Assembly: GCF_028656955.1 (NCBI RefSeq)
Contig: NZ_JAMDGY010000069.1
Coordinates: 1-64,000 of the forward strand
Length of the DNA: 64,000 bases
Origin: Pseudomonas fontis
GTDB taxonomy: Bacteria > Pseudomonadota > Gammaproteobacteria > Pseudomonadales > Pseudomonadaceae
Direction: 5' to 3'
Shown: in pieces, positions 13,047 through 62,241 of the stretch
Numbering within the stretch: the first letter of the stretch is position 1
Layout: every line of letters begins with the position of its first letter
Position numbers and translations under genes: made by a program
Notes under the pieces: model-generated
The model's input: the letters and a program-made list of their open reading frames with translations, nothing else
Database searches by the model: none
Told to the model about the DNA's origin: nothing

Positions 13047-15014
13047 TTATTCGCTGGTAAGGGCTTTGACCGGATCAAGCCGGGCGGCTTTGCGCGCCGG
13101 CATGAAACCGAAGACCACGCCGGTAATCACGGCGCAGGCGAAGGCACCCAGGACGGCGCCAAGAGAGAACGCCACGGCAATATTGGCCAGCAGCAAGCCG
13201 CCGCCAATCAGCACCGCCAAGGCAATGCCGGTAACGCCGCCGACCATCGACAGCAGCACCGCCTCGGTCAGGAACTGGCGCAGGATGTCGCGCTGGCGTG
13301 CACCGGTGGCCATGCGGATGCCGATTTCCCGGGTGCGCTCGCGCACCGTCATCAACATGATGTTCATTACCCCGATACCGCCCACCAGCAGGGAGATGGC
13401 GGCAATCGAGCCAAGCATCAGCGACAGGGTGTTCTGCGTCCGGGCCTCAGCCTGGATCAGCGCGGCATCGTTGGTCAGTTCGTAGTCCTGCTTGCCGTTG
13501 TGCAGCTTGCGCATCAAGTGGTCGATGGCTGCTTCGGTCTCCTTGACGCGACGTGAATCGGCGGCGGCAATGGTGATGTACTCCGGGTCGCGGCTGCCGA
13601 ACAGGCGGATGGCGGCGGCGGAGTAGGGCACCACGATACGCTCGTCGCTGTCCTCGCTGCCGGAGCTGGCGCCCTTGCCTTGCAGCACGCCAAGCACCTG
13701 GAAGGGCACATTCTCGATGAGGATGTAGCGCCCCAGGGCATTGGCCTGCGGGCCGAACAGCTTGTCGCGCACCTTCTGCCCGATCACCGCCACCGCTGCC
13801 GCCGATTGCTCGTCGGCTTCGGTGAAGAAGGCGCCTTCGACCACCGGCCAGTTGAAGATCTCGGGGAAGTAGGTGTTGTTGCCACCGACATAGAACGAGC
13901 CGTTGTTGTTGCCGTGGCGCGCCATCATCTTGTTGCCGATCACCGGCATGATCATCTTCACCTGGGGCAGCCCGGACAACGCCGCCACCTCGTCCAGGGT
14001 GATGAGGCCCGCCGGCTCACGCAAGGTAGCTGACTTGCCGCTGAGGTAGAGGATGTTCGAGCCGAAGGCAGCCATCTGCGCCATCACCTGGCGCTTGCTG
14101 CCTTCACCGACGGCGAGCATCACCACTACCGAAGCCACGCCGATGACAATGCCGAGCAAGGTCAGGGCGGTGCGGAATCGATTGATCCACATGACCCGCC
14201 AGGCCGCTTGCAGCGCTTCGAGCAGCTCGCCTTTCCAGGCGCCGCTTTCGGTGGCGCCGCGATCAAGGCGCTGGCGCAGGTCTTCGGCTTGCAGGCCGGG
14301 GTGGCTGGTGGGAGGCGGCGCCTGCTCGTTGGCCGAATCGTTGACCACCAGGCCATCGCGAATCTCGATCACGCGCTGGGCCCGGGCCGCCACTTCGCGG
14401 TCATGGGTGATGAGGATGACCACGTGGCCCTGGCTTGCCAGCTCATCGAGCAATGCCATGACTTCAGCGCCGCTCTGGCTGTCGAGCGCTCCGGTCGGCT
14501 CGTCGGCGAGGATGATATGGCCGCCATTCATCAACGCCCGGGCAATCGATACACGCTGCTGCTGGCCGCCAGACAACTGGTGCGGGCGGTTGGCGGTGCG
14601 GCTGGCCAGGCCCAGGCGGTCGAGCAGGGCGGCCGCGCGGGCATGCCGTTCGGCAGCGGGGGTGCCGGCATAGATGGCCGGCATTTCGACGTTCTCCTGG
14701 GCCGAGCCCGAGGCGATCAGGTGGTAGCCCTGGAACACGAAGCCAAAGGCTTCCCGGCGCAGCCAGGCCAGCTCGTCGCTGTCCAGCATGGCGACGTCCT
14801 TGCCTGCGAAGTAATACTCGCCGGAGGTTGGTCGATCAAGGCAGCCGAGGATGTTCATCAGGGTCGACTTGCCGGAACCCGAGGCGCCGACAATGGCGAC
14901 GAACTCACCCGGGTGGATGGCCAGGCTGATGCCCCTGACCACCTCGACGAGCGGCGTGTCGATACCGCCATAGGCTTTGCGGATGTCGCGCAGTTCAATC
15001 AGCGGCGTGGACAT
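13047..15014 (-). CDS. pvdT: Pyoverdine efflux ABC transporter PvdT (MacB-like)
   Basis: A 655-residue fused ABC transporter. The N-terminal ATPase (about 1-240) has the Walker [13 protein letters not shown], the signature [15 protein letters not shown] and Walker [14 protein letters not shown] membrane helix near 285 leads to a large periplasmic domain and a three-helix C-terminal FtsX-like part with [19 protein letters not shown]. This is the MacB architecture. PvdT powers transport through PvdR and OpmQ. It abuts pvdR without a gap and is followed after three bases by opmQ. Expression is expected to be iron-regulated from the PvdS-type promoter ahead of pvdR. Confidence 0.92.
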
Positions 15015-16196
15015 TCAACCCCCGCTGGCGACAGGTGCGCCGATCAGCAGGTGGTCACCTTCGGCCAGGCCGTCGAGGATCTGCACCCGCAAGCGGTCAC
15101 TGAGGCCGGTGCGCACCTGGCGCTGTTCGATCTTGCCGTTGGCAGCGATCACCTGGGCGGTGCGCTGGTCATTCTGGCCCTCGCCGTCTTCCAGTGCCGA
15201 CAGTGGGGCAGTGAGGACGTTCTTGGCCTGGCCGGCAACGAAGAACACCTGCGCGGTCATCTCGGCCATCAAGGTGTTGTCGGCATTGTCGACGTCAAGC
15301 AACACGGTATACAGCACGACCTTGCCACTGGCCGCGCCGCTGCTGCTGGTGCCGCTGTTGCCGGTGCCACTCTGGCTGGATTGATCGAGCGGCTTGGGCG
15401 GGATCGGCAGGATCTGTCGCACGGTGCTGCTCCAGCGCCGCTTGCCGCCACTGAGGGTGGTGAAGTAGGCCGTCATGCCCGGCTTTACATGGCCGATGTC
15501 CGCTTCGGAGACCTGGGCCCACACGGTCATCGGCGAGAGCTTGGCGATCCGCAGGATCAATGGCGTTTGCTGCTGGGCATTGAGGGTCTGGCCTTCACGA
15601 GCGTCGACGGCAACCACGGTGCCGGACATCGGCGCGTAGATGCGTGTGTAGCCGAGCTCGGCTTCATCGCTGCGCAGGCTGGCCTGGGCTTGGAGAATTT
15701 GCGCGCGGAACATGGCGATGCGCGCCTGGGTCACCTTCAATTGTGCCTGGGCGCTCTGCACATCCTCTTCGCGGGTGGCGCCACCGCTGGCCAGGTGCTG
15801 CTGGCGTTTGTACTGCTGTTCGGCGAGTTGGTACTGGGCTTGCTGCTCGGCCAGCTGCGCCTTGAGGTTTTCAATCGAGAAACGCCCGGCATCAAGGCGG
15901 GCCTGTTGCGTCGAGGGGTCGATTTCGACCAAAAGCTGACCTTCTTCGATCCGGTCACCGGCCTCCACGTGCAGCTTGCGGATCTGCCCGGAAGCTTGCG
16001 CGCCGACATCGACATAACGCCTGGGCTGCAAGGTGCCCAGGGCGGTCACGCTGCTTTCGATATCCCCCCGCGTCACCGCAACGGTGTTCAATGGGTCACC
16101 ACTGCCGGGCAGGGTTTTCCAGGCAACCAGGGCGCCCAGGCTGATGAGGCCCAGGCCGCAGAACAACAGGCGGCGTTTGACGGTTTGACGACTCAT
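15015..16196 (-). CDS. pvdR: Periplasmic adaptor protein PvdR (MacA-like)
   Basis: A 393-residue membrane-fusion protein. A single N-terminal helix (about 10-30) anchors it. A lipoyl half-motif (YVDVGAQASGQI) is followed by a long coiled-coil hairpin rich in Gln and Ala (about 95-175), the second lipoyl half and a beta-barrel domain. A Ser/Gly-rich loop near residue 275 is characteristic of MacA-like members. It links the inner-membrane ATPase PvdT to OpmQ. It is the first gene of the operon; an exact iron-starvation box lies about 80 bp upstream. Confidence 0.9.
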   Translation of the reverse strand: MSRQTVKRRLLFCGLGLISLGALVAWKTLPGSGDPLNTVAVTRGDIESSVTALGTLQPRRYVDVGAQASGQIRKLHVEAGDRIEEGQLLVEIDPSTQQARLDAGRFSIENLKAQLAEQQAQYQLAEQQYKRQQHLASGGATREEDVQSAQAQLKVTQARIAMFRAQILQAQASLRSDEAELGYTRIYAPMSGTVVAVDAREGQTLNAQQQTPLILRIAKLSPMTVWAQVSEADIGHVKPGMTAYFTTLSGGKRRWSSTVRQILPIPPKPLDQSSQSGTGNSGTSSSGAASGKVVLYTVLLDVDNADNTLMAEMTAQVFFVAGQAKNVLTAPLSALEDGEGQNDQRTAQVIAANGKIEQRQVRTGLSDRLRVQILDGLAEGDHLLIGAPVASGG

Positions 16197-16447: not shown

Positions 16448-16945
16448 ATGACGCAGCCAGGTGTACTTCTGGAAACCTACTATCGCGAACTGGTGAGTTT
16501 CCTCAACGCCCGCCTGGGCAATCGTCAGGTGGCCGAGGATGTCGCCCACGATGCCTATGTGCGCGTGCTGGAGCGGGCAGGTGCAGACGCGATCGAGCAC
16601 CCGCGTGCGTTCCTCTATCGCACTGCGCTGAACCTGGTGATCGACGGGCACCGCCGCAACCAGCTGCGCCAGAGCGAACCGCTGGAGGTGCTGGACAACG
16701 ACGAGCGATTCTTCTCGCCAGCACCGCAGCACAGCATGGACCTCAACCAGCGCCTGGAGCTGATGCAGCGGGCGCTGGCGGAGCTGAGTGGCAATTGCCG
16801 TGATTGCTTCCTGTTGCGCAAGCTGGAGGGCCTGTCGCACCAGGACATCGCTGAGCGCATGGGGGTTTCGCGCAGCGTGGTGGAAAAACACATCGTCAAC
16901 GCCATGAAGCATTGCCGCCTACGCATGCAGCAATGGGCGTCCTGA
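16448..16945 (+). CDS. fpvI: ECF sigma factor, FpvI-like
   Basis: A 165-residue iron-starvation type ECF sigma factor. Region 2 (about 8-75) includes RQVAEDVAHDAYVRVLE and FLYRTALNLVIDGHRR. Region 4 (about 105-160) includes GLSHQDIAERMGVSRSVVEKHIVNA. No anti-sigma (FpvR/FecR-like) gene is adjacent. It does not resemble PvdS as I know it, and its size and place beside pvdRT suggest FpvI, which drives the ferripyoverdine receptor gene. The ATG at 16448 was chosen because the frame upstream runs through the Fur box and promoter. Exact identity among iron ECF factors needs a phylogeny. Confidence 0.75.
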   Translation: MTQPGVLLETYYRELVSFLNARLGNRQVAEDVAHDAYVRVLERAGADAIEHPRAFLYRTALNLVIDGHRRNQLRQSEPLEVLDNDERFFSPAPQHSMDLNQRLELMQRALAELSGNCRDCFLLRKLEGLSHQDIAERMGVSRSVVEKHIVNAMKHCRLRMQQWAS

Positions 16946-17125
16946 GCGGCTTATTTCGAAATAACTAATAACAATTATGTGGGGCGACTTGATTTCCTCC
17001 ACTTTCACGACAAGTATCTAGACAGACCCTTCAATTGGCGAAGTGCCCGCCACAGCCTGCTGTGTTTGACTGGCGCAGTGATGGTCAAGGAACGTTATCC
17101 ACGCTCATCACCTTGGTCATACACG

Positions 17126-17611
17126 ATGCCAAACAAGTCGCTGCGTATCCTGATTGCCGATGAGCACCCCATGCAGCTGTTGCAGATGGAGAAGTTGCTC
17201 AATGGCATGGGCTATTACCGGGTCGCGCCGGTACACACCTTCGAAGACCTGCAGCACCTGGTGCAGAACGCACTGCTGCCGTTCGACCTGCTGATCGGCA
17301 ATACCGACCTGGCCAGCCATGCCGGGGTCGACCTTGAGCGTTTTTGCCGGGTCAATACCCAGGTCAGGCATGCGCTGCTGTACGAGTCGCAACACCTGAA
17401 AGTGCCCAGTGTCCCGGCAGCCCAGCGCCAGGCCGTGAGCATCAGCCTGCCCAAGGTGCCCGATGACGAGGCGCTGCATGCGTTCATGGCGATCATCGAT
17501 GGGCCGCGCCTGGTCGGGCAGGTGGCCAATCCGTCGGGCCAGCCTGCGCCCCACGGCCACCCTCGGCGCTGGATGAACCAGGGGCATTCGCTGTTTTCCC
17601 GTCAGCCCTGA
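17126..17611 (+). CDS. Degenerate receiver-domain protein without phospho-acceptor
   Basis: A 161-residue protein with a CheY-like start, LRILIADEHPMQLLQMEKLL. In the segment FDLLIGNTDLASHAG the position aligned to the phospho-acceptor Asp is Asn59, so ordinary phosphorylation is unlikely. A lysine in SLPKVPDD may match the conserved Lys. No output domain follows; the tail is short and rich in Pro, Gly and His. It lies downstream of the FpvI-like sigma gene on the same strand, after a 180-bp AT-rich gap. It may be a protein-protein switch; no function is established. The start is the first ATG giving a normal receiver N terminus; a GTG at 17081 is possible. Confidence 0.6.
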   Translation: MPNKSLRILIADEHPMQLLQMEKLLNGMGYYRVAPVHTFEDLQHLVQNALLPFDLLIGNTDLASHAGVDLERFCRVNTQVRHALLYESQHLKVPSVPAAQRQAVSISLPKVPDDEALHAFMAIIDGPRLVGQVANPSGQPAPHGHPRRWMNQGHSLFSRQP

Positions 17612-17696: not shown

Positions 17697-19013
17697 ATGA
17701 CTGCCAACGACCCGGCGCGCGCCTTGCGCTTTTCGCGCAGCGACCACAAGACCCTGAGCCTGGCTGCATTGGGCGGGGCGCTGGAGATCTACGATTTCAT
17801 CATCTTCGTGTTCTTCGCGCTGACCTTGAGCCAGCTGTTCTTCCCACCGGAAATGCCGGAGTGGCTGCGCCTGCTGCAAAGCTTCGGGATTTTCGTCACC
17901 GGTTACCTGGCCCGGCCGCTGGGCGGCATTCTCATGGCGCACTTTGCCGACCATTTGGGGCGCAAGAAGGTGTTCAGCCTGAGCATCCTGATGATGGCGC
18001 TGCCCTGCCTGCTGATCGGGGTGATGCCGACCTATGCCGATATCGGCTATGCCGCGCCGTTGATCCTGCTGGCCTTGCGCATCCTGCAAGGTGCGGCGGT
18101 GGGCGGCGAGGTGCCGAGCGCCTGGACGTTCGTCGCCGAGCACGCGCCAGCTGGGCGACGCGGCTATGCGTTGGGCTTCCTCCAGGCCGGGCTGACCTTT
18201 GGCTACCTGCTGGGTGCCTTGACGGCGACAGCGCTGGCGCAAATCTTTACCCCGCAGGAAATTCTCGATTACGCGTGGCGCTATCCGTTCCTGCTGGGGG
18301 GCGTATTCGGGGTGATCGGTGTCTGGTTGCGTCGCTGGCTTAGCGAGACACCGGTGTTTCTGGCGTTGCAAGAGCGCCGCGAGCAGCCGGTGGCCTTCCC
18401 GTTGCGCGAGGTACTGCGCGAACACCGTCGGGCGCTGGTCCCCGCCGCCTTGCTGACCTGCGTGCTGACCTCGGCAGTAGTGGTGCTGGTGGTAATCACC
18501 CCAACCGTCATGCAGCAACGCTTCGGCATGAGCGCGGCCCACACCTTCGCCCTGAGCAGCCTGGGCATCGTCTTCCTGAACATTGGCTGTGTGCTCGCCG
18601 GCCTGCTGGTGGACCGCATTGGCGCCTGGCGGGCACTAATGGTTTACAGCCTGTTGCTGCCGCTGGGCATCGCGGGCCTGTACGGCAACCTGATTGCCGG
18701 CTGGGGCTGGACCGGGCCGGCGTATGCCTTGGCCGGGCTGGCCTGTGGTGTCGTGGGTGTGGTGCCATCGGTGATGGTCGGGCTGTTCCCGGCGCGCATC
18801 CGCGTCTCGGGTATTTCCTTTACCTACAACGTGGCCTACGCCCTGTGGGCGAGCACCACACCGTTGCTGCTGATCGCCTTGATGCCCTGGAGCCCGTGGG
18901 TGTGCGTGGGTTTCTGCCTGGTCATGGGCACGGTGGGCGTGCTCAGCGGCCTGTATTTCGGCATGCGTGAGCAATTGCACGCCGAGGACGACCTGGCGTT
19001 GATCAAGGGCTGA
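17697..19013 (+). CDS. MFS metabolite:proton symporter
   Basis: A 438-residue major-facilitator permease of the metabolite:H+ symporter (ProP/KgtP/CitA) family, with twelve predicted helices. It starts with a charged segment and the family-typical GALEIYDFIIFVFFA. The loop 2-3 signature reads AHFADHLGRKKVF, and RILQGAAVGGEVPSAWTFVAEHAP matches helix 4-5. The likely cargo is a small organic acid or amino-acid derivative, which cannot be fixed from sequence. The ATG at 17697 has GAAGCGGAAGCC ahead of it. It stands alone between the iron-regulation genes and mqsRA. Confidence 0.82.
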   Translation: MTANDPARALRFSRSDHKTLSLAALGGALEIYDFIIFVFFALTLSQLFFPPEMPEWLRLLQSFGIFVTGYLARPLGGILMAHFADHLGRKKVFSLSILMMALPCLLIGVMPTYADIGYAAPLILLALRILQGAAVGGEVPSAWTFVAEHAPAGRRGYALGFLQAGLTFGYLLGALTATALAQIFTPQEILDYAWRYPFLLGGVFGVIGVWLRRWLSETPVFLALQERREQPVAFPLREVLREHRRALVPAALLTCVLTSAVVVLVVITPTVMQQRFGMSAAHTFALSSLGIVFLNIGCVLAGLLVDRIGAWRALMVYSLLLPLGIAGLYGNLIAGWGWTGPAYALAGLACGVVGVVPSVMVGLFPARIRVSGISFTYNVAYALWASTTPLLLIALMPWSPWVCVGFCLVMGTVGVLSGLYFGMREQLHAEDDLALIKG

Positions 19014-19130: not shown

Positions 19131-19139
19131 AGCGTCTTC

Positions 19140-19436
19140 ATGGAGAAAAGAACGCCACATTGCAGATTGTCGGTGGTCAAGCGGCTGATAGTGCAAGGGC
19201 AGGTGAAGTCCACCTTCTCTGCGCTGTCGGGAGCGGCCACGCTGGGCATGGATTTTGAGGACATGCTGGACGTCGTCATGGCCCTGACACCTGCGGATTT
19301 TTACAAAAGCATGTCGACCCACGCCGATCATCGGGTGTGGCAAGACGTTTATCGAACGAGCGCGGGCACCGGTGCGGTCTATTTGAAACTGACGGTGATC
19401 GATGACGTGCTGATCGTCTCGTTCAAGGAGCTGTAG
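19140..19436 (+). CDS. mqsR: mRNA interferase toxin MqsR
   Basis: A 98-residue RelE-fold endoribonuclease, the same length as E. coli MqsR, which cuts mRNA at GCU/GCA sites. The N terminus MEKRTPH, the DFYKSM segment and the C-terminal VLIVSFKE are as in the E. coli protein, and its catalytic residues Lys56, Gln68 and Tyr81 are all present, so the toxin looks intact. The toxin gene comes first, as is characteristic of mqsRA. mqsA follows two bases after its stop. P. putida KT2440 carries the same pair next to its ETF genes. Confidence 0.93.
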   Translation: MEKRTPHCRLSVVKRLIVQGQVKSTFSALSGAATLGMDFEDMLDVVMALTPADFYKSMSTHADHRVWQDVYRTSAGTGAVYLKLTVIDDVLIVSFKEL

Positions 19437-19438
19437 GC

Positions 19439-19840
19439 ATGAAATGTCCTGTCTGCGGGGCGGTCGAACTGGAAGCGTCCATACGTGACCTGCCCTACGT
19501 GTACAAAGGGGAGTCGCTGGTGATTCCCGCCGTATCCGGCGAGTTCTGCCCGGCGTGCGGCGAAGCGGTGCTGGATGCGGCAGAGTCGGCGCGAGTCAGT
19601 GCGGCGATGCTGGCGTTCAGTCGTCAGGTCAACAGCACGTTTGTCGATCCGGGCTTCATTGCCAGTGTGCGCAAGAAGCTGTCACTCGATCAGCGCGAGG
19701 CTGCGGAGATTTTCGGCGGAGGCGCCAACGCTTTTTCGCGTTACGAAAACGGCAAGACCAAACCACCGCTGGCGCTTGTCAAATTGCTGCGTCTGCTGGA
19801 TCGGCACCCCGAGTTGCTCAATGAAGTAAGAGCCGCCTGA
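19439..19840 (+). CDS. mqsA: Antitoxin and autorepressor MqsA
   Basis: A 133-residue two-domain antitoxin. The N-terminal zinc domain holds Cys3, Cys6, Cys37 and Cys40, which covers MqsR. The C-terminal HTH domain (about 69-133) has the DNA-contacting Asn97 and Arg101 in GGANAFSRYENGKTKPP. All these match the E. coli positions. It neutralises MqsR and represses the operon. The pair ends at a strong terminator shared with the convergent ETF-ubiquinone oxidoreductase gene. Confidence 0.93.
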   Translation: MKCPVCGAVELEASIRDLPYVYKGESLVIPAVSGEFCPACGEAVLDAAESARVSAAMLAFSRQVNSTFVDPGFIASVRKKLSLDQREAAEIFGGGANAFSRYENGKTKPPLALVKLLRLLDRHPELLNEVRAA

Positions 19841-56113: not shown

Positions 56114-58042
56114 TTAGCATTTATCGCCAGTCACAGATGTCGTGCCGGGCAGCCAGCGTTGCAGAATTTGCTGTAGATCAGTGCGTTTGAACGGCTTGGC
56201 CAGGTAGTCGTTCATGCCCGCGTCCAGGCAGCGCTCGCGGTCACCCTGCAGCGCATTGGCAGTCAGGGCGATGATCGGCATGCCCGAGGCCTGGGGCAAC
56301 TGGCGGATCTGCCGGGTGGCTTCGTAGCCATCGATCAGCGGCAGGCGGCAATCCATCAGGGTCGCGGCGAAGCGCTGGCGGGCGACCTGGGCCACGGCCT
56401 GGGCACCGTCCGCCGCGACCCAGACTTCAAAGCCCAGGCTGCGCAGCATGGCCTGGATCACGGTCTGGTTCACCGGGTTGTCTTCGACCAGCAGGATGCG
56501 CCGGCCCTGGCCTTCCTCCTGCTCCCTGGCGCTGCGTGCCGGCAGCGCGGCCAGCGGCTGGGCGCAGAGTGCCAGGGGCATTTCCAGGGTGAAGGTCGAA
56601 CCCACGCCTTCGCGGCTTTCGGCGCGCAAGCTGCCGCCCATGCGTTCGGCCAGGTTACGCGCGATCGACAGGCCCAGCCCGGTGCCGCCATAGCGCCGGG
56701 AAATCGAGCTGTCAGCCTGCTGGAAGGCCACGAACATGGTTTCCAGGCGCGCGCTGTCGATGCCGATGCCGGTATCGCGTACCGCGCAGGTGAACCACAC
56801 CAGTTGCCGGTCGAGCACTTGCCAGCGTGGCTCGATGTGCACGCTGCCGTGTTCAGTGAACTTCAAGGCGTTGCCAATCAGGTTGACCAGCACCTGGCGG
56901 ATCCGCGTCGGGTCGCCGGCCACGCGCAGTTGCTCCATGCCCGGTGGCGTCAGCAGCTCCAGCGCCAGCTGGCGTTGCTGGGCGATGTGCTGGAACGATT
57001 GCACGCAGTTGCCGATCAGCTCGGCCAGGTTGAAATCAATGTGCTCCAGCTCCAGCGTGGTGCGCTCGATGCGGGAGAAGTCGAGGATATCGTTGATCAC
57101 TTTGAGCAGGTGCCCGGTCGACTCGGTGGCGACCACCGTGTACTCGTCCTGCTCTTCGCTCAGTTCGGTGGTTTGCAGCAATTGCAGCATGCCCAGCACC
57201 CCGTTCATCGGTGTGCGCAACTCATGGCTCATCATGGCCAGGAAGTCCGACTTGGCCTTGTTCGCCTGCTCGGCTTCTTCGCGGGCCTGGATCAACTGGG
57301 CGATGGCCTGTTGTTGCTCGCTGCTGGCCTGGGCCAGGGCACTGGCCAGGTTGTTGATGTGCCGGGCCAGGTGGCCGAGCTCGCTGTCATCGACCACCGG
57401 CAGTGGGGCGTTGAAGTCGCCTTTCTGGATCGCCTTGACCGCATGCCCCATGTCGCTGATCGGCGTCGACAGGCTGCGTGCCAAACGGCGGGCGAGCAGG
57501 AAGGTGAATATCAGCGCGAACAGCGCGAGGACGCCCGCCTTGAAGACGATCTCCTGCTGGCGTTGGTTGAAGGCGTCGTCGGACATGCCGACGATCACCC
57601 GGCCCAGGTAGTCGTCGCTGATCGGGGTGATGCCCGCGTTGCCATTCTGCAGGAAGTCGTTGTCCAGGCGAATCCGCTGCAGGCGGATCGGTGCCTGGAA
57701 CACTTCCACCTGCTGCGCGCGGTTGTCGTGCTCGTCGGGCCGCTCGACATAGACCAGCACGCGGTTGGCATTGTCCTGGACCTCGAGGAAGCGCACGTGG
57801 GGAATGGTCAGGGTGGCGCGCATCAGGCTTTCGAGCACTTCGTCGTTACCGGAGATCACCCCGTACTCGGAGGCGGGCGCCAACTGGTTGGCGATCAGTT
57901 GCCCGGTGTGGGTGAGTTCCTGGCGCAGGTCCTGGATCCGCACGAAGGTAAAGAAGCTGATCAGCAGCAAGGTCAGCAGCAGGGCCGGGCCGAGGCTGAT
58001 GATCTGGGTGCGGGTATTGATATCCCAGCTCAGGCGTTTCAT
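56114..58042 (-). CDS. BarA-like hybrid sensor kinase (PA1611 type)
   Basis: A 642-residue hybrid kinase. Helix 1 is at about 15-35, a periplasmic sensor of the BarA N-terminal kind spans about 36-165, and helix 2 is near 167-185. HAMP (186-240) is followed by HisKA with His273 in [11 protein letters not shown], a HATPase with [16 protein letters not shown] and GGTGLGLSI, and a C-terminal receiver with Asp564 in [11 protein letters not shown] and Lys617 in LAKPF. There is no Hpt domain. Its position between fabA and gpsA matches P. aeruginosa PA1611, which binds RetS and affects the Gac/Rsm switch. It is the last gene of an operon with a periplasmic binding protein and a TonB-dependent receptor. 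The ATG at 58042 overlaps the upstream stop (ATGA). Confidence 0.88.
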
Positions 58043-58932
58043 GGGTTCGCTTCTCCTGCGGCCACGGCCTTGGCGGCGGCTACCAGGTCGATGGCTTCGA
58101 TGCCCAGGGCGCGGGCGACCTGTTGATTTGCGGCAACACTGAAGTGCGTGGGGTACAGCGCCCGCGGCCATTTGCCGGTGGGCTGGTCGAGCAATTGGCC
58201 GAGCATGGCGAGCCAGTCGTCCTGGTCACTCAAGGTGCTGGCCAGGCCACCTGCGCGCACGAAACCGGCGCTTGGGCCGATCAGGGCCATCTGCCGGGCA
58301 TAGCTGCTGAGCAGGATGTTCTTGGCCGTCTTGGGGTTGAACAGTTGCGGGTCATCCAACCCCAGCAGTACGTCACTGTCCTTGAGCAGGGTTTGCAACG
58401 CGCGGTTGTCGCGGGTGTCCGGCCAGGCCTGGGCGACGATCTCCAGGCCAAGCGGACGTGCGGCCTGGCGCAGTTCATCGATCAGTTGCCGGCTGTTTTC
58501 GCCATACAACACGCCGATGCGGCGGGCCTGGGGGAGTAGATAGTGGGTCAGGCGCAATTGGCGGTCGGCCGGTGGGTCGCTCCACAGCAAGGTCAGGAAC
58601 GGCGGGCGCAAGCTGCCCAGGCGCTGTTCGGCCTGGACGCGCGAGATGCGCAGCACCAATGCCGGCGGGCCGGCGGTTTCCGTGAGGCGCCAATCAAGGG
58701 CTTCAAGGTCAAGCAGAATGAGGCGTGTCGCGGGCTTCAGGGTGCCGGGGCGGGCCAGTTGGTGCAGCGGAACGAAGCGCACCTGATCATTGGGACGTTG
58801 CGCGCTCAGTGCCGTGACGAAATGCTGCACGCCAGCGTTGTCCGCGCTGCCGGTCAGCAGAATCTCGGCAGCCATCAGCGGTGCCAATGGCCAGAACAGC
58901 GCCAGGAGCAGGAAGCACCGCAGCCAGCGCAT
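58039..58932 (-). CDS. Orphan periplasmic binding-protein-like component
   Basis: A 297-residue secreted protein with a signal peptide (about 1-21, ending LMA). The fold looks like a two-lobe periplasmic binding protein of the ABC_sub_bind/TrpX type: [56 protein letters not shown] and [11 protein letters not shown]. No ABC permease or ATPase is nearby. It overlaps the receptor gene by one base and the kinase gene by four, so it probably presents a ligand to the kinase or takes it from the receptor. Ligand unknown. Confidence 0.75.
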
Positions 58933-61043
58933 CAGAATTCCAGTTCCGCGCTGAAATACAACACGTGACGGCTGTCGTACAGGTTGTCGTAGCTGCTGGT
59001 CGGCTCATGGTCCAGGCGTTGCTGGAGCATGCCGGCCAGTTCCAGGCTGGCGCGTTGCAGGCTGATGCGCTTGGCCACGCGCAGGTCGGCGCGCTCGAAA
59101 CGGTAGCCGTTGAGCGCATCGGCGCCATAGTAGAACAGTGCACTCGACCAACCCATGCCCCAGTCGCGCATCCAGCCAGCCGAGCCACTGTTGCGGGCGC
59201 TCAGACGGCGGTCGTCAGCATTGCTGGCCCAGGCGTCGACATAGGCGTAGGTCATGCGCAAACGGTCGGCATGGGTCATGCGCCAGTCGGCTTGCACCTC
59301 GCTGCCGGTGAAGCGGGCCTGGTTGCTGTTGCTGGCGATGTACTGGTTGTTGCGCAGCGGTTCACTGACCATGCCGGTGATTTCGTCATGGAACAGCTTG
59401 AGGTCCAGGGTCAGGTCGGCGTCGGCAAAGAAGCCGTTGTAGCCCAGCTCCCGCGAGCGCATGCGTTCCTGGTCGAGGTTGCCCGGGCCACGGGTCTTGA
59501 CGAAATACTCGGCGCTGCCCTGGCCGAAGGCCGTCGGGCTCAGGTTGTTGACCCGGTAGCTCCAGTTGACGTTGTTCTCGAACATGTCGGGCGAGCGCAC
59601 GGCTTCGGAGTAGACCGCGCGCAAGCCATGACGCGGGGTGATCAGGTAGTTGACGGCCACCCGTGGCGTCAGCGAGCTGCCGGAGAGGTGGGCGTCCTCG
59701 TACATTGCACCGCCCTGGATCAGCCAGTGCTCGTCGGCGCGCCATTCCAGCTGGCCGAACAGGCGCCAGGTGGTGTCGTCCAGGCTGCCGTTGAAGTAGG
59801 TCTGCGAGTCCGCGCGGTCGTAGCGGTAATTGACGCCGCTGAGCAGGCGCAGGTTGTCGGTGAGGCTCAGGGTGTCCTGGATCTCCAGGTCGTAGCGCGT
59901 CTCGCGGGTGCTCTGGTCGATGTCGCCGCACACCTGCTGGTAGCCGCCAACATTCCACTGCGCCTGGACTTCTCCAGCCAGGGCCTGCTCCTGCGCTGTG
60001 CCCGTGGGAACCGGCGCGCGGATATTGCGTGCCAGTTGCTCGGCATACCACGGGTTGAGCTGCCACAGCTGGGTCAATTGCGGGCTGAAGGACAGCGCTG
60101 CATCGCAGGCACGCCAGACCTGCTGGCGGTCCCAGTGCTGGGCCGAACCCTGCACGTACAAACTGTGCTGGGGGTTGAAGTCGATGTTCCAGCGCACCGA
60201 GCCGGCGTAGTCCTTGGCCGCGACATCGGAGTTGTCGCCTTCGGCCGTCACCCCGTAGAACACCGGCTTGTAGGTGTACGGCCGCTGGTTCGCGCCTTCC
60301 TTGGCAGACAGCTGCCAATCGAGGCTCTGATCCGGCGCCAGGGCATGGCTGGCACTCAGGCTGAAGCGGGTCAGGCGGCGGCTGTCGCGGTAGTCCAGGC
60401 CCTTGTGGGTTTCGTCGAAGCCATCGTCCTGCATGCCGGACAGCGACAGGCGCAGGTCGCCACCGTCCCAGCCCATGCCCTGGCTGGCGTACCAGTCGTT
60501 GATGCCGCGTTGACCACGGGTCACCTTCAGCCGCGTGCCATGGCTGTCGGCCGGGTTGCGGGTGAGGATGTTGACCACCGCCATCAGCGCATTGGCGCCA
60601 TAGCTGACGGTATTGGGGCCACGGAACACTTCGATGCGCTCGATGTCTTCCATGGCCAGGGGAATGTCGCTCCAGTCCACCGTCGCCAGGCCGGCGCGGT
60701 ACACCGAGCGGCCATCGATCAGTACCTGCATGCGCCGCGCGTCGTTGACATTGCTGCCATGGTAATTGACCGTGGGCTGGTTGCCGGCGATGTAGCCGAC
60801 CATCATGCCCGGCACCAGGCGCAGCAGCTCCGGGATGTCGCGGGCGCCGCTGGCGCGGATCAGTTCGCTGTCGAGCACGGTCATGCTGCCGGGCACGGCG
60901 GCGGGGGATTGCTTGAGCCGGGTGGCGGTCAATACTTCAGGCAGCGCCTGGCTGTCGACGAACAGATCGTCGGCCGCGGCCGGGCCGCCGAGCAGGGCAG
61001 TCAACAACAATAGCGGGCGGGGGGAGGAGGGGCCAAAGAACAC
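58932..61043 (-). CDS. TonB-dependent outer-membrane receptor
   Basis: A 703-residue receptor. A signal peptide (about 1-23, ending PAAA) is followed by a plug domain with a TonB-box-like PEVLTAT, ASGARDIPELLRLVPGM, MQVLIDGRSVYRAG and ERIEVFRGPNTVSYGANA. A 22-strand barrel ends in the aromatic AELEF. No Fur box is evident. The start is inferred as a GTG at 61043, because the frame upstream looks non-coding and the signal peptide begins there; a weak AAGG lies upstream. The cargo is unknown. Its operon with a binding protein and a sensor kinase suggests sensing of the imported ligand. Confidence 0.85.
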   Translation of the reverse strand: MFFGPSSPRPLLLLTALLGGPAAADDLFVDSQALPEVLTATRLKQSPAAVPGSMTVLDSELIRASGARDIPELLRLVPGMMVGYIAGNQPTVNYHGSNVNDARRMQVLIDGRSVYRAGLATVDWSDIPLAMEDIERIEVFRGPNTVSYGANALMAVVNILTRNPADSHGTRLKVTRGQRGINDWYASQGMGWDGGDLRLSLSGMQDDGFDETHKGLDYRDSRRLTRFSLSASHALAPDQSLDWQLSAKEGANQRPYTYKPVFYGVTAEGDNSDVAAKDYAGSVRWNIDFNPQHSLYVQGSAQHWDRQQVWRACDAALSFSPQLTQLWQLNPWYAEQLARNIRAPVPTGTAQEQALAGEVQAQWNVGGYQQVCGDIDQSTRETRYDLEIQDTLSLTDNLRLLSGVNYRYDRADSQTYFNGSLDDTTWRLFGQLEWRADEHWLIQGGAMYEDAHLSGSSLTPRVAVNYLITPRHGLRAVYSEAVRSPDMFENNVNWSYRVNNLSPTAFGQGSAEYFVKTRGPGNLDQERMRSRELGYNGFFADADLTLDLKLFHDEITGMVSEPLRNNQYIASNSNQARFTGSEVQADWRMTHADRLRMTYAYVDAWASNADDRRLSARNSGSAGWMRDWGMGWSSALFYYGADALNGYRFERADLRVAKRISLQRASLELAGMLQQRLDHEPTSSYDNLYDSRHVLYFSAELEF

Positions 61044-61169
61044 GGCACGGCCTTGTTTGCGGGTACAAGTCGGGCATGTTAACCGAGTAGCCGGGTTTTT
61101 CCAGTGATCCAGATCGTATTGCCAGCATCGCTTGGCTAATCTGGCGCTGGTCGTGGCAGTAACGCTCCG

Positions 61170-61175
61170 TATAAT
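61170..61175 (+). promoter_or_regulatory. Probable -10 element of gpsA
   Basis: A perfect TATAAT 40 bp before the gpsA ATG. The -35 region about 17 bp upstream (CTGGTC) is weak. Confidence 0.45.
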
Positions 61176-61215
61176 GCAGGTTTCGCCACTTTTAATTGGT
61201 TTTAACGGATTGGAT

Positions 61216-62241
61216 ATGACTGAGCAGCAGCCGGTTGCAGTTCTGGGAGGCGGAAGTTTCGGCACCGCCGTGGCGAATCTGCTGGCTGAACACGGTGTCG
61301 GGGTGCGGCAATGGATGCGCGACCCCGAGCAAGCCGAAGCCATGCGCAACAACCGCGAAAACCCGCGTTACCTCAAGGGTGTGAAAATCCACCCGGCGGT
61401 CGAGCCGGTCAATGACCTGCTGGCGACCCTGCAGGCTTGCGAGCTGATCTTCGTCGCGCTGCCGTCCAGCGCCTTGCGCAGTGTGCTGGCGCCGCATGCC
61501 GAGTTGCTGCGCGGCAAGCTGCTGGTGAGCTTGACCAAGGGCATCGAAGCGCAGAGCTTCAAGCTGATGAGCCAGATCCTCGAAGAAATCGCCCCCGAAG
61601 CGCGCATCGGCGTGTTGTCCGGGCCGAACCTGGCCCGCGAAGTCGCCGAGCACGCGCTGACCGCCACCGTGGTCGCCAGTGAAGATGAAGAACTCTGCCA
61701 ACGCGTCCAGGCCGTGCTGCACGGGCGCACTTTCCGCGTTTACGCCAGCAGCGACCGTTTTGGCGTTGAGCTGGGTGGTGCGTTGAAGAACGTCTACGCG
61801 ATCATCGCCGGCATGGCCGTGGCGCTGGGCATGGGTGAAAACACCAAGAGCATGCTGATCACCCGTGCGCTGGCCGAGATGACCCGCTTCGCGGTCAGCC
61901 AGGGCGCGAACCCGATGACCTTCCTTGGCTTGGCCGGGGTTGGCGACTTGATCGTCACCTGTTCCTCGCCCAAGAGCCGCAACTACCAGGTCGGTCACGC
62001 CCTGGGCCAGGGCCTGAGCCTGGAAGAGGCGGTCAATCGCCTGGGTGAAGTGGCCGAAGGCGTCAACACGCTCAAGGTCCTCAAGGTCAAGGCCCAGGAA
62101 CTGCAGGTGTACATGCCGCTGGTAGCGGGGCTGCACGCGATCCTGTTTGAAGGCCGCACGTTGAACCAGGTCATCGAGCTGCTGATGCGTGCCGAGCCGA
62201 AAACCGATGTCGATTTCATTTCCACCAGTGGTTTCAACTGA
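61216..62241 (+). CDS. gpsA: Glycerol-3-phosphate dehydrogenase [NAD(P)+]
   Basis: A 341-residue cytoplasmic enzyme reducing dihydroxyacetone phosphate to sn-glycerol 3-phosphate for phospholipids. It has the NAD(P) site [21 protein letters not shown], the segment [10 protein letters not shown], the catalytic Lys in [15 protein letters not shown] and the substrate-binding [19 protein letters not shown]. The ATG at 61216 gives normal length. It starts a run of four closely spaced genes. Confidence 0.96.

Follow-up and report, generated by a model that had tools for sequence, protein, structure and literature searches.

Gene, neighbours and upstream region

The window analysed here is a stretch of 64,000 nucleotides from Pseudomonas fontis (contig NZ_JAMDGY010000069.1, positions 1 to 64,000), which corresponds to contig C69 of the host genome. 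At positions 17126-17611 of its forward strand lies a gene for a stand-alone pseudo-receiver, recognized from its open reading frame, its receiver homology, 53 distinct orthologue rows and its dN/dS ratio. The gene starts with an ATG at 17126, stops at 17609-17611 and encodes a product of 161 amino acids; these coordinates agree with those of the initial annotation, as does the lack of an output domain, none of which was found in the 161-residue protein by a Pfam scan. An in-frame GTG at 16979 was disfavoured as a start; homology among the orthologues begins at Met1, which is present in 52 of the 53 rows, and the single exception, L061, ends at a contig edge. The C-terminal 30 residues or so are variable among orthologues apart from the terminus itself, F157-x-R159. 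This F-x-R end (codons at 17594-17602) is shared by all 53 rows, and a similar F-x-R-like end is found in L081, an early-branching distant member of the family.

Within a genus sample of 298 genomes, a family match at E ≤ 1e-5 was obtained in 234. The orthologue set comprised 60 sequences including that of the window and was collapsed to the 53 distinct rows. The neighbour survey covered the 53 genomes with the strongest matches, the host genome among them, down to 49% identity. The nearest named relative in the scan was Pseudomonas sp. SDI (86%). Of 30 loci found, 28 were titled Pseudomonas, one was a Pseudomonas MAG and one a MAG titled Paucimonas (L043, 74%).

The gene adjoins and lies downstream of an fpvI-like ECF sigma factor gene at 16448-16945 on the forward strand, which matches NCBIfam PRK12527 with 279 bits (cut-off 162) and bears out the FpvI-like neighbour named in the initial annotation. 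Upstream of fpvI, on the reverse strand at 13047-16196, are two reading frames (13047-15014 and 15015-16196) for efflux genes, which we take from the operon layout to be pvdT-like and pvdR-like. At E ≤ 1e-40, fpvI was detected in 41 of the 53 genomes, and in all 41 it lies directly upstream of the pseudo-receiver gene on the same strand, with a gap of 151-216 bp save in two cases (779 and 808). The adjacency that the initial annotation had noted thus holds wherever fpvI is present and is missing from the other 12 genomes, so that the obligate link expected of a member of the pyoverdine/FpvI regulon was not found. Among the 60 fetched loci, fpvI is full-length in 40, reduced to a C-terminal fragment in three (L011 and L047, with an identical protein, and L039, the pseudo-receiver gene being intact) and not found in 17, which include L061 with no upstream DNA and L048 with just 1.8 kb. 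Homologues of pvdR and pvdT lie upstream in most of the orthologous loci whose sequence extends that far, whether fpvI is present or not. They are kept in ten fpvI-less loci of 7.5 kb (L038, L040-L045, L050, L054 and L063) and were not found around L057. A conserved position beside pyoverdine genes is present; its absence would, by the initial annotation, have told against the iron reading.

This arrangement bears directly on the proposal of a partnership with FpvI or the pyoverdine/iron circuit, in which protein contact would switch the sigma factor or its anti-sigma factor. The unbroken adjacency in all fpvI-bearing genomes speaks for it. Against it stand the 12 genomes that keep the gene without fpvI, as well as L047 and L039, where no more than a C-terminal fragment of fpvI remains beside an intact gene. 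A place beside fpvI is thus, as judged from the genomes compared, common, yet the gene is not dependent on fpvI.

The upstream region also argues for some autonomy. A conserved element, TTGATTT-N19-TATC, which may be a promoter or a regulator site, was located on the forward strand at 16989-17018, where the consensus of the block reads CTTGATTTCTG..GGTTTCCCGACAACTATCAA. A relaxed form of the pattern, of one fixed length, is found in 50 of 52 distinct upstream regions (the misses being L033 and L039) and in 1 of 2600 shuffles; a strict form is found in 30 of the 52. A form stricter than the relaxed one, allowing two mismatches at most, occurs once in the host genome. No sigma-70 pattern was detected at the element by a pattern scan. 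All 13 rows classed as lacking fpvI have the element, and the fragment-bearing L039 is one of the two misses. Since the block is conserved in 50 of 52 regions, including rows without fpvI, the pseudo-receiver gene appears to have a control element of its own, and this persistence without fpvI is a further point against the FpvI partnership.

The initial annotation had also described an AT-rich stretch at about 16955-16975 as weakly Fur-like. The best Fur-like site in the gap between fpvI and the gene matches 11 of 19 positions of the Fur consensus, and shuffled sequences gave a mean of 10.4 and a 95th percentile of 12. The stretch is not conserved across 25 aligned upstream regions. A Fur box in this gap was accordingly rejected, the score being at chance level and conservation being absent, and the iron proposal has no credible Fur site there to draw upon. 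Sites before fpvI itself score 12/19 in the window and 11-14/19 in the 11 orthologues tested. One point in favour of the iron proposal comes from rows without fpvI, where a putative Fur-like site of 12-13/19, as a raw match count, lies within 350 bases upstream in four of nine (L042, L044, L050 and L054).

The most constant neighbour is an MFS transporter gene at 17697-19013 on the forward strand (Pfam MFS_1 and Sugar_tr). In every one of the 60 fetched loci it follows the pseudo-receiver gene on the same strand, and a close match to it exists in 52 of the 53 genomes. Even in the divergent, fpvI-less loci L067, L068, L070 and L071 the two genes still adjoin. Such constancy would be expected if the protein worked with the transporter, as a regulator or adaptor of the permease or of its expression. 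This seems unlikely, given that among 20 distant loci searched the transporter gene was found only in the five closest (L067-L071), that the 85-base gap between the two genes holds weak terminator-like sites and that receiver-type partners of MFS permeases are not known as a kind.

Two other features of the window were recorded. Downstream of the MFS gene, at 19131-19840 on the forward strand, is an MqsR toxin/MqsA antitoxin pair (Pfam, 112.6 and 206.9 bits). At 56117-61352, all on the reverse strand, are genes for a hybrid sensor kinase (sCache_4-HAMP-HisKA-HATPase-REC), an ABC-type substrate-binding protein and a TonB-dependent receptor, which possibly form a receptor-linked signalling cluster.

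Receiver homology and the altered active site

The Pfam Response_reg model matches residues 8-72 of the protein with an E value of 0.0006; its score of 20.4 bits falls short of the curated cut-off, 30.2 bits. Among 29 family members, 24 match the model at E ≤ 0.1, the best with 1.4e-6. When the family profile was aligned by hhalign with a profile of 24 genuine receiver domains, a probability of 98% and an E value of 2e-13 were obtained. By these profile comparisons, the 161-residue protein is a homologue of the canonical receiver domain (PF00072).

Structural evidence was weaker. AlphaFold models built from 30 or 29 rows were poor, with pLDDT values of 45 and 51. In the second of these low-pLDDT models the predicted order of elements fits a receiver for strands 1-4, and strand 5 and helix 4 were not seen. 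Its top Foldseek matches were CheY-like folds, with a best E value of 0.013 and none at or below 0.001, and are not significant. Three sequence searches of solved structures returned weak matches (best E 0.44, 0.043 and 0.0002).

Alignment with CheY and with receiver domains places Asn59 (codon AAT, 17300-17302, forward strand) opposite the phosphorylated Asp57 of CheY, as the initial annotation had stated. All 53 orthologue rows have Asn here; a normal Asp, which would have told against the role proposed in the initial annotation, occurs in none of them. The first residue of the acidic pair, Asp12 (17159-17161, forward strand), is kept as Asp in 52 of 53 orthologue rows and in 76 of 78 distant members. 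Compared with CheY, the protein of the window has Glu13 in place of Asp13 and Glu87 in place of Thr87, and the Thr position is occupied by His, Glu or Gln in 53 of 53 orthologue rows. Lys110 aligns with Lys109 of CheY; this column is not conserved, with Lys in 25 of the 53 rows, that of the window included, and another residue in 28. The phospho-acceptor Asp and the conserved Thr/Ser and Lys that mark a canonical receiver are thus not retained, and the protein is, from its residues, a pseudo-receiver or aspartate-less receiver, with receiver homology and without the catalytic residues.

Loss of the active-site residues, together with the lack of an adjoining kinase-regulator pair, could point to a functionless relic heading for disappearance. 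The rate of substitution speaks strongly against this. Relative to the gene of the window, the median dN/dS was 0.19 (29 pairs, residues 1-130), near the value of 0.14 for fpvI (16 pairs, including a fragment of 60 codons); the MFS gene gave 0.09 (29 pairs). With Asn59 invariant and the upstream element conserved as well, decay is highly improbable, and the gene is, by these ratios, under purifying selection and not a relic.

A further possibility is that the protein is itself a sensor, whether of redox state through Cys74 or of a metal or small ligand bound where the active site once was (Asp12, His14, His65 and residue 87). Cys74 (17345-17347, forward strand) is the sole Cys of the protein and, like His14 and His65, is invariant in 53 of 53 orthologue rows; pseudo-receivers controlled by redox state or by ligands are among those described in PMC12632262. 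In the wider family, however, Cys74 is found in only 32 of 78 distant members and both His residues vary in the family alignment, and the models are too poor to place any of these residues. Direct sensing is for these reasons regarded as quite unlikely.

The wider family and its signalling neighbours

A distant set of 80 loci from other genomes was chosen among the matches listed, with identities down to 33%. Three loci (L118, L153 and L154) were dropped when the gene picker found no family member in them, and 78 members in 77 loci were recovered; these include five loci near the window type, L067-L071. Loci in related genomes share descent, so the counts given for distant loci are not independent. 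At position 59, the 78 distant members have 66 Asn, 5 Asp, 4 His and 3 Ser, and Asp, Ser and Lys occur together in just one, L081. A tree unites the family in a single clade (100/100) that excludes the receiver domains of the kinases, regulators and EAL proteins encoded nearby; an origin of the family within those domains is therefore unsupported. As far as the samples searched extend, the family is seen only in Pseudomonas-like genera. No description of it was found in the literature searched, parts of which were accessible only as excerpts, and this is not proof of absence.

Many members of the family lie beside genes for a phosphorelay. Of the 77 distant loci, 48 encode an EvgS-type kinase no more than two genes away on the same strand, and 38 a NarL/GerE-type regulator. 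A kinase, regulator or EAL regulator is present in the fetched stretch of 53 loci. In the representatives scanned, the domains of the neighbouring kinase are SBP_bac_3 x2-PAS-HisKA-HATPase-REC-HPt, those of the regulator REC-GerE and those of the third neighbour REC-EAL. The best NCBIfam names for these neighbours were EvgS, EvgA and PvrR, all under cut-off. None of the three classes is represented in the stretches of the other 24 loci, of which nine carry PapD-type fimbrial chaperone genes and a kinase of another class and 15 have no such signalling gene.

A P-type cation ATPase class, recognized by its domains and presumably MgtA-like, is also represented within two genes of the member in 21 of the 77 distant loci, and a presumably MgtC-like class in 7; a gene of one or the other class is often found immediately upstream (for example in L104, L106 and L142).

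Pyoverdine genes recur in the wider family too. Either pvdA or fpvI is present in the stretch of 19 of the 77 distant loci (pvdA in 17, fpvI in 9), and an EvgS-type kinase is also found in 18 of these 19. The order fpvI-pvdA-member-regulator-kinase occurs in seven distant loci, with extra genes in between in L142, which suggests that the fpvI-member-MFS order of the window may be related to this layout. The FpvI or iron partnership gains a little weight from these 19 loci; with neither gene in the stretch of the remaining 58, it is still judged unlikely. The specific iron role proposed in the initial annotation is thus weakened by the genomes without fpvI, by the gene's own upstream element, by the chance-level Fur score and by the EvgS-type kinase being the commonest neighbour in the family. 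It is weakened rather than refuted, since no orthologue with Asp was found in the 53 rows and the pyoverdine-adjacent position is conserved.

A palindrome, TAGGA-N4-TCCTA (TCGGA variants included), may also link the family to the regulator. It was found upstream of 32 of the 36 members that directly precede a regulator or a regulator-kinase pair, about 76-107 bases before the start codon (loci within L074-L163), and in 6 of 1560 mononucleotide shuffles. It was found before 0 of 13 members that directly follow a kinase, in 0 of 9 fimbrial loci, before 1 of 20 other members and in 0 of 60 loci of the window type. The regulator may bind this box. In the host genome the strict box occurs at five places, and a reversed control at two. 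One of the five precedes a RocA-like gene on contig C53 (44% to the regulator). Another precedes a 422-residue frame on C141 that is RocR-like in its receiver (40% to the receiver of the EAL regulators).

Counterparts that retain the phospho-acceptor were sought outside the genus. A family-level sample gave a profile match at E ≤ 1e-8 in 14 of 119 genomes, representing 3 of 19 genera, and an order-level sample added no further genome (2 of 115, the host genome included). Nine stretches from two other genera were examined. In seven of them, all from one genus (L184-L189 and L192), a stand-alone receiver that retains Asp, Ser and Lys, as read by eye, adjoins a regulator and a kinase of the two classes described above. 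These seven loci may correspond to the roc2 locus of P. aeruginosa (PA3044-PA3045). L190, from the second genus, has an Asp-bearing stand-alone receiver beside a cluster of EAL regulator, regulator and kinase, and the family member of L191, which lacks the Asp, lies close to genes for a kinase, an EAL protein and fimbriae. In the tree, the Asp-bearing receivers adjoin the family weakly (55/93), and do not form one clade; the family itself sits on a branch of 2.14.

No kinase-regulator pair was found among the neighbours in the 60 window-type loci, so that any link of the window's own orthologue group to a Roc/EvgS system would come from the wider family only. Candidate partners are available elsewhere in the host genome, where homologues of the EvgS-type kinase occur at seven loci (C18, C104, C53, C92, C141, C89 and C28) with 35-55% identity over the matched pieces. 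NarL-type regulators are encoded on the same contigs. In a tree of receiver domains, the kinases of C104, C28 and C53 group with the kinases that neighbour family members (fork 92/94).

Proposed role and comparison with known systems

The best explanation, to which we give a probability of about one half, is that the gene encodes an orphan from a stand-alone pseudo-receiver family of EvgS/RocS-type phosphorelays, and that the protein may serve as a phosphorylation-blind accessory acting in trans. The sequence comparisons establish receiver ancestry, loss of the Asp and the Thr, the lack of a conserved Lys, purifying selection, a conserved upstream element of the gene's own and recurrent linkage to kinase and regulator genes. 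By ancestry the family would belong to unorthodox phosphorelays composed of an H1-REC-HPt kinase and a NarL/RocA-type regulator, to which a RocR-like EAL regulator is sometimes added. The pseudo-receiver is envisaged to dock on the HPt domain or a receiver domain of one of these relays. Being unable to take a phosphoryl group, it would then influence phosphoryl flow by competition or allostery, and would not be a phosphate sink. A docking partner of this kind is suggested by the missing phosphorylation site, by receiver ancestry with Asp12 kept and by the many relatives that adjoin an HPt-bearing kinase. The Asp-bearing stand-alone receiver would perform the ordinary version of the same job in another genus. 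Because the orthologue group of the window has neither an adjoining pair nor the regulator palindrome, the copy in the window would have its target in trans, in one of the several kinases of EvgS type that the host genome encodes.

On present evidence, the protein more likely tunes a kinase system without phosphate than controls iron uptake. Some observations run against the phosphorelay accessory. None of the 60 window-type loci shows the pair or the palindrome, the Asp-bearing receivers join the family weakly on the tree values given above, 24 of the distant loci lack these signalling classes, and the AlphaFold models are poor; the 19 distant loci with pvdA and/or fpvI may be claimed for the iron reading. 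A fuller history is more tentative, and we consider it doubtful. The family may have arisen from an Asp-bearing accessory receiver of Roc/EvgS phosphorelays by a change of Asp to Asn that was then kept, becoming a phosphorylation-blind antagonist at HPt or receiver sites that is controlled by the regulator in many lineages; in the P. putida group, it would have been freed, acquired a new promoter and come to modulate several kinases at once.

The Asn-bearing proteins can naturally be compared, in the study of phosphoryl flow, with the apparent Asp-bearing counterparts that accompany similar pairs in another genus. The proposed accessory would also add an unrecognized player to Roc-type networks. 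In P. aeruginosa, networks of this type control fimbriae and biofilm formation.

Single-domain response regulators and phosphate sinks work by phosphorylation. In the present family, by contrast, 73 of the 78 distant members and all 53 orthologue rows are without the Asp. The single-domain response regulator MrrA (PMC5964349) is likewise a stand-alone receiver inside a phosphorelay. The receiver domain of FrzS from Myxococcus xanthus also lacks the Asp; it is part of a larger motility protein and does not stand alone (PMC1974792, PMC12632262).

The bacterial pseudo-receivers described in PMC12632262 have in common with the protein of the window receiver ancestry, loss of the phospho-acceptor, retention of the DD1 acid and altered T and K positions. 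The examples in the accessible text of that source are domains of larger proteins, whereas the protein of the window stands alone and many of its relatives adjoin a complete kinase-regulator pair. A parallel treated there is CmrT of the Clostridioides difficile CmrRST system, which is similarly a pseudo-receiver encoded with an otherwise normal kinase-regulator pair and for which phosphorylation-blind models of the docking-partner kind have been proposed (PMC12632262). CmrR and CmrT are described as OmpR-family regulators (PMC12548384), whereas the protein of the window has no output domain. Unlike in CmrRST, the pair beside members of this family is of the EvgS/RocS type, and the copy in the window has no adjoining pair.

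The Roc system of P. aeruginosa, to which the roc2 locus (PA3044-PA3045; PMC3083521) belongs, comprises H1-REC-HPt kinases (RocS1 with SBP_bac_3), the regulator RocA and the EAL-type RocR, with cross-talk between partners and fimbrial targets (PMC12051241, PMC3083521). No stand-alone pseudo-receiver was seen in the portions of these descriptions that were available (PMC12051241, PMC3083521). The neighbours of the present family have the same domains as the Roc proteins, and their classification by homology and domains does not imply Roc orthology.
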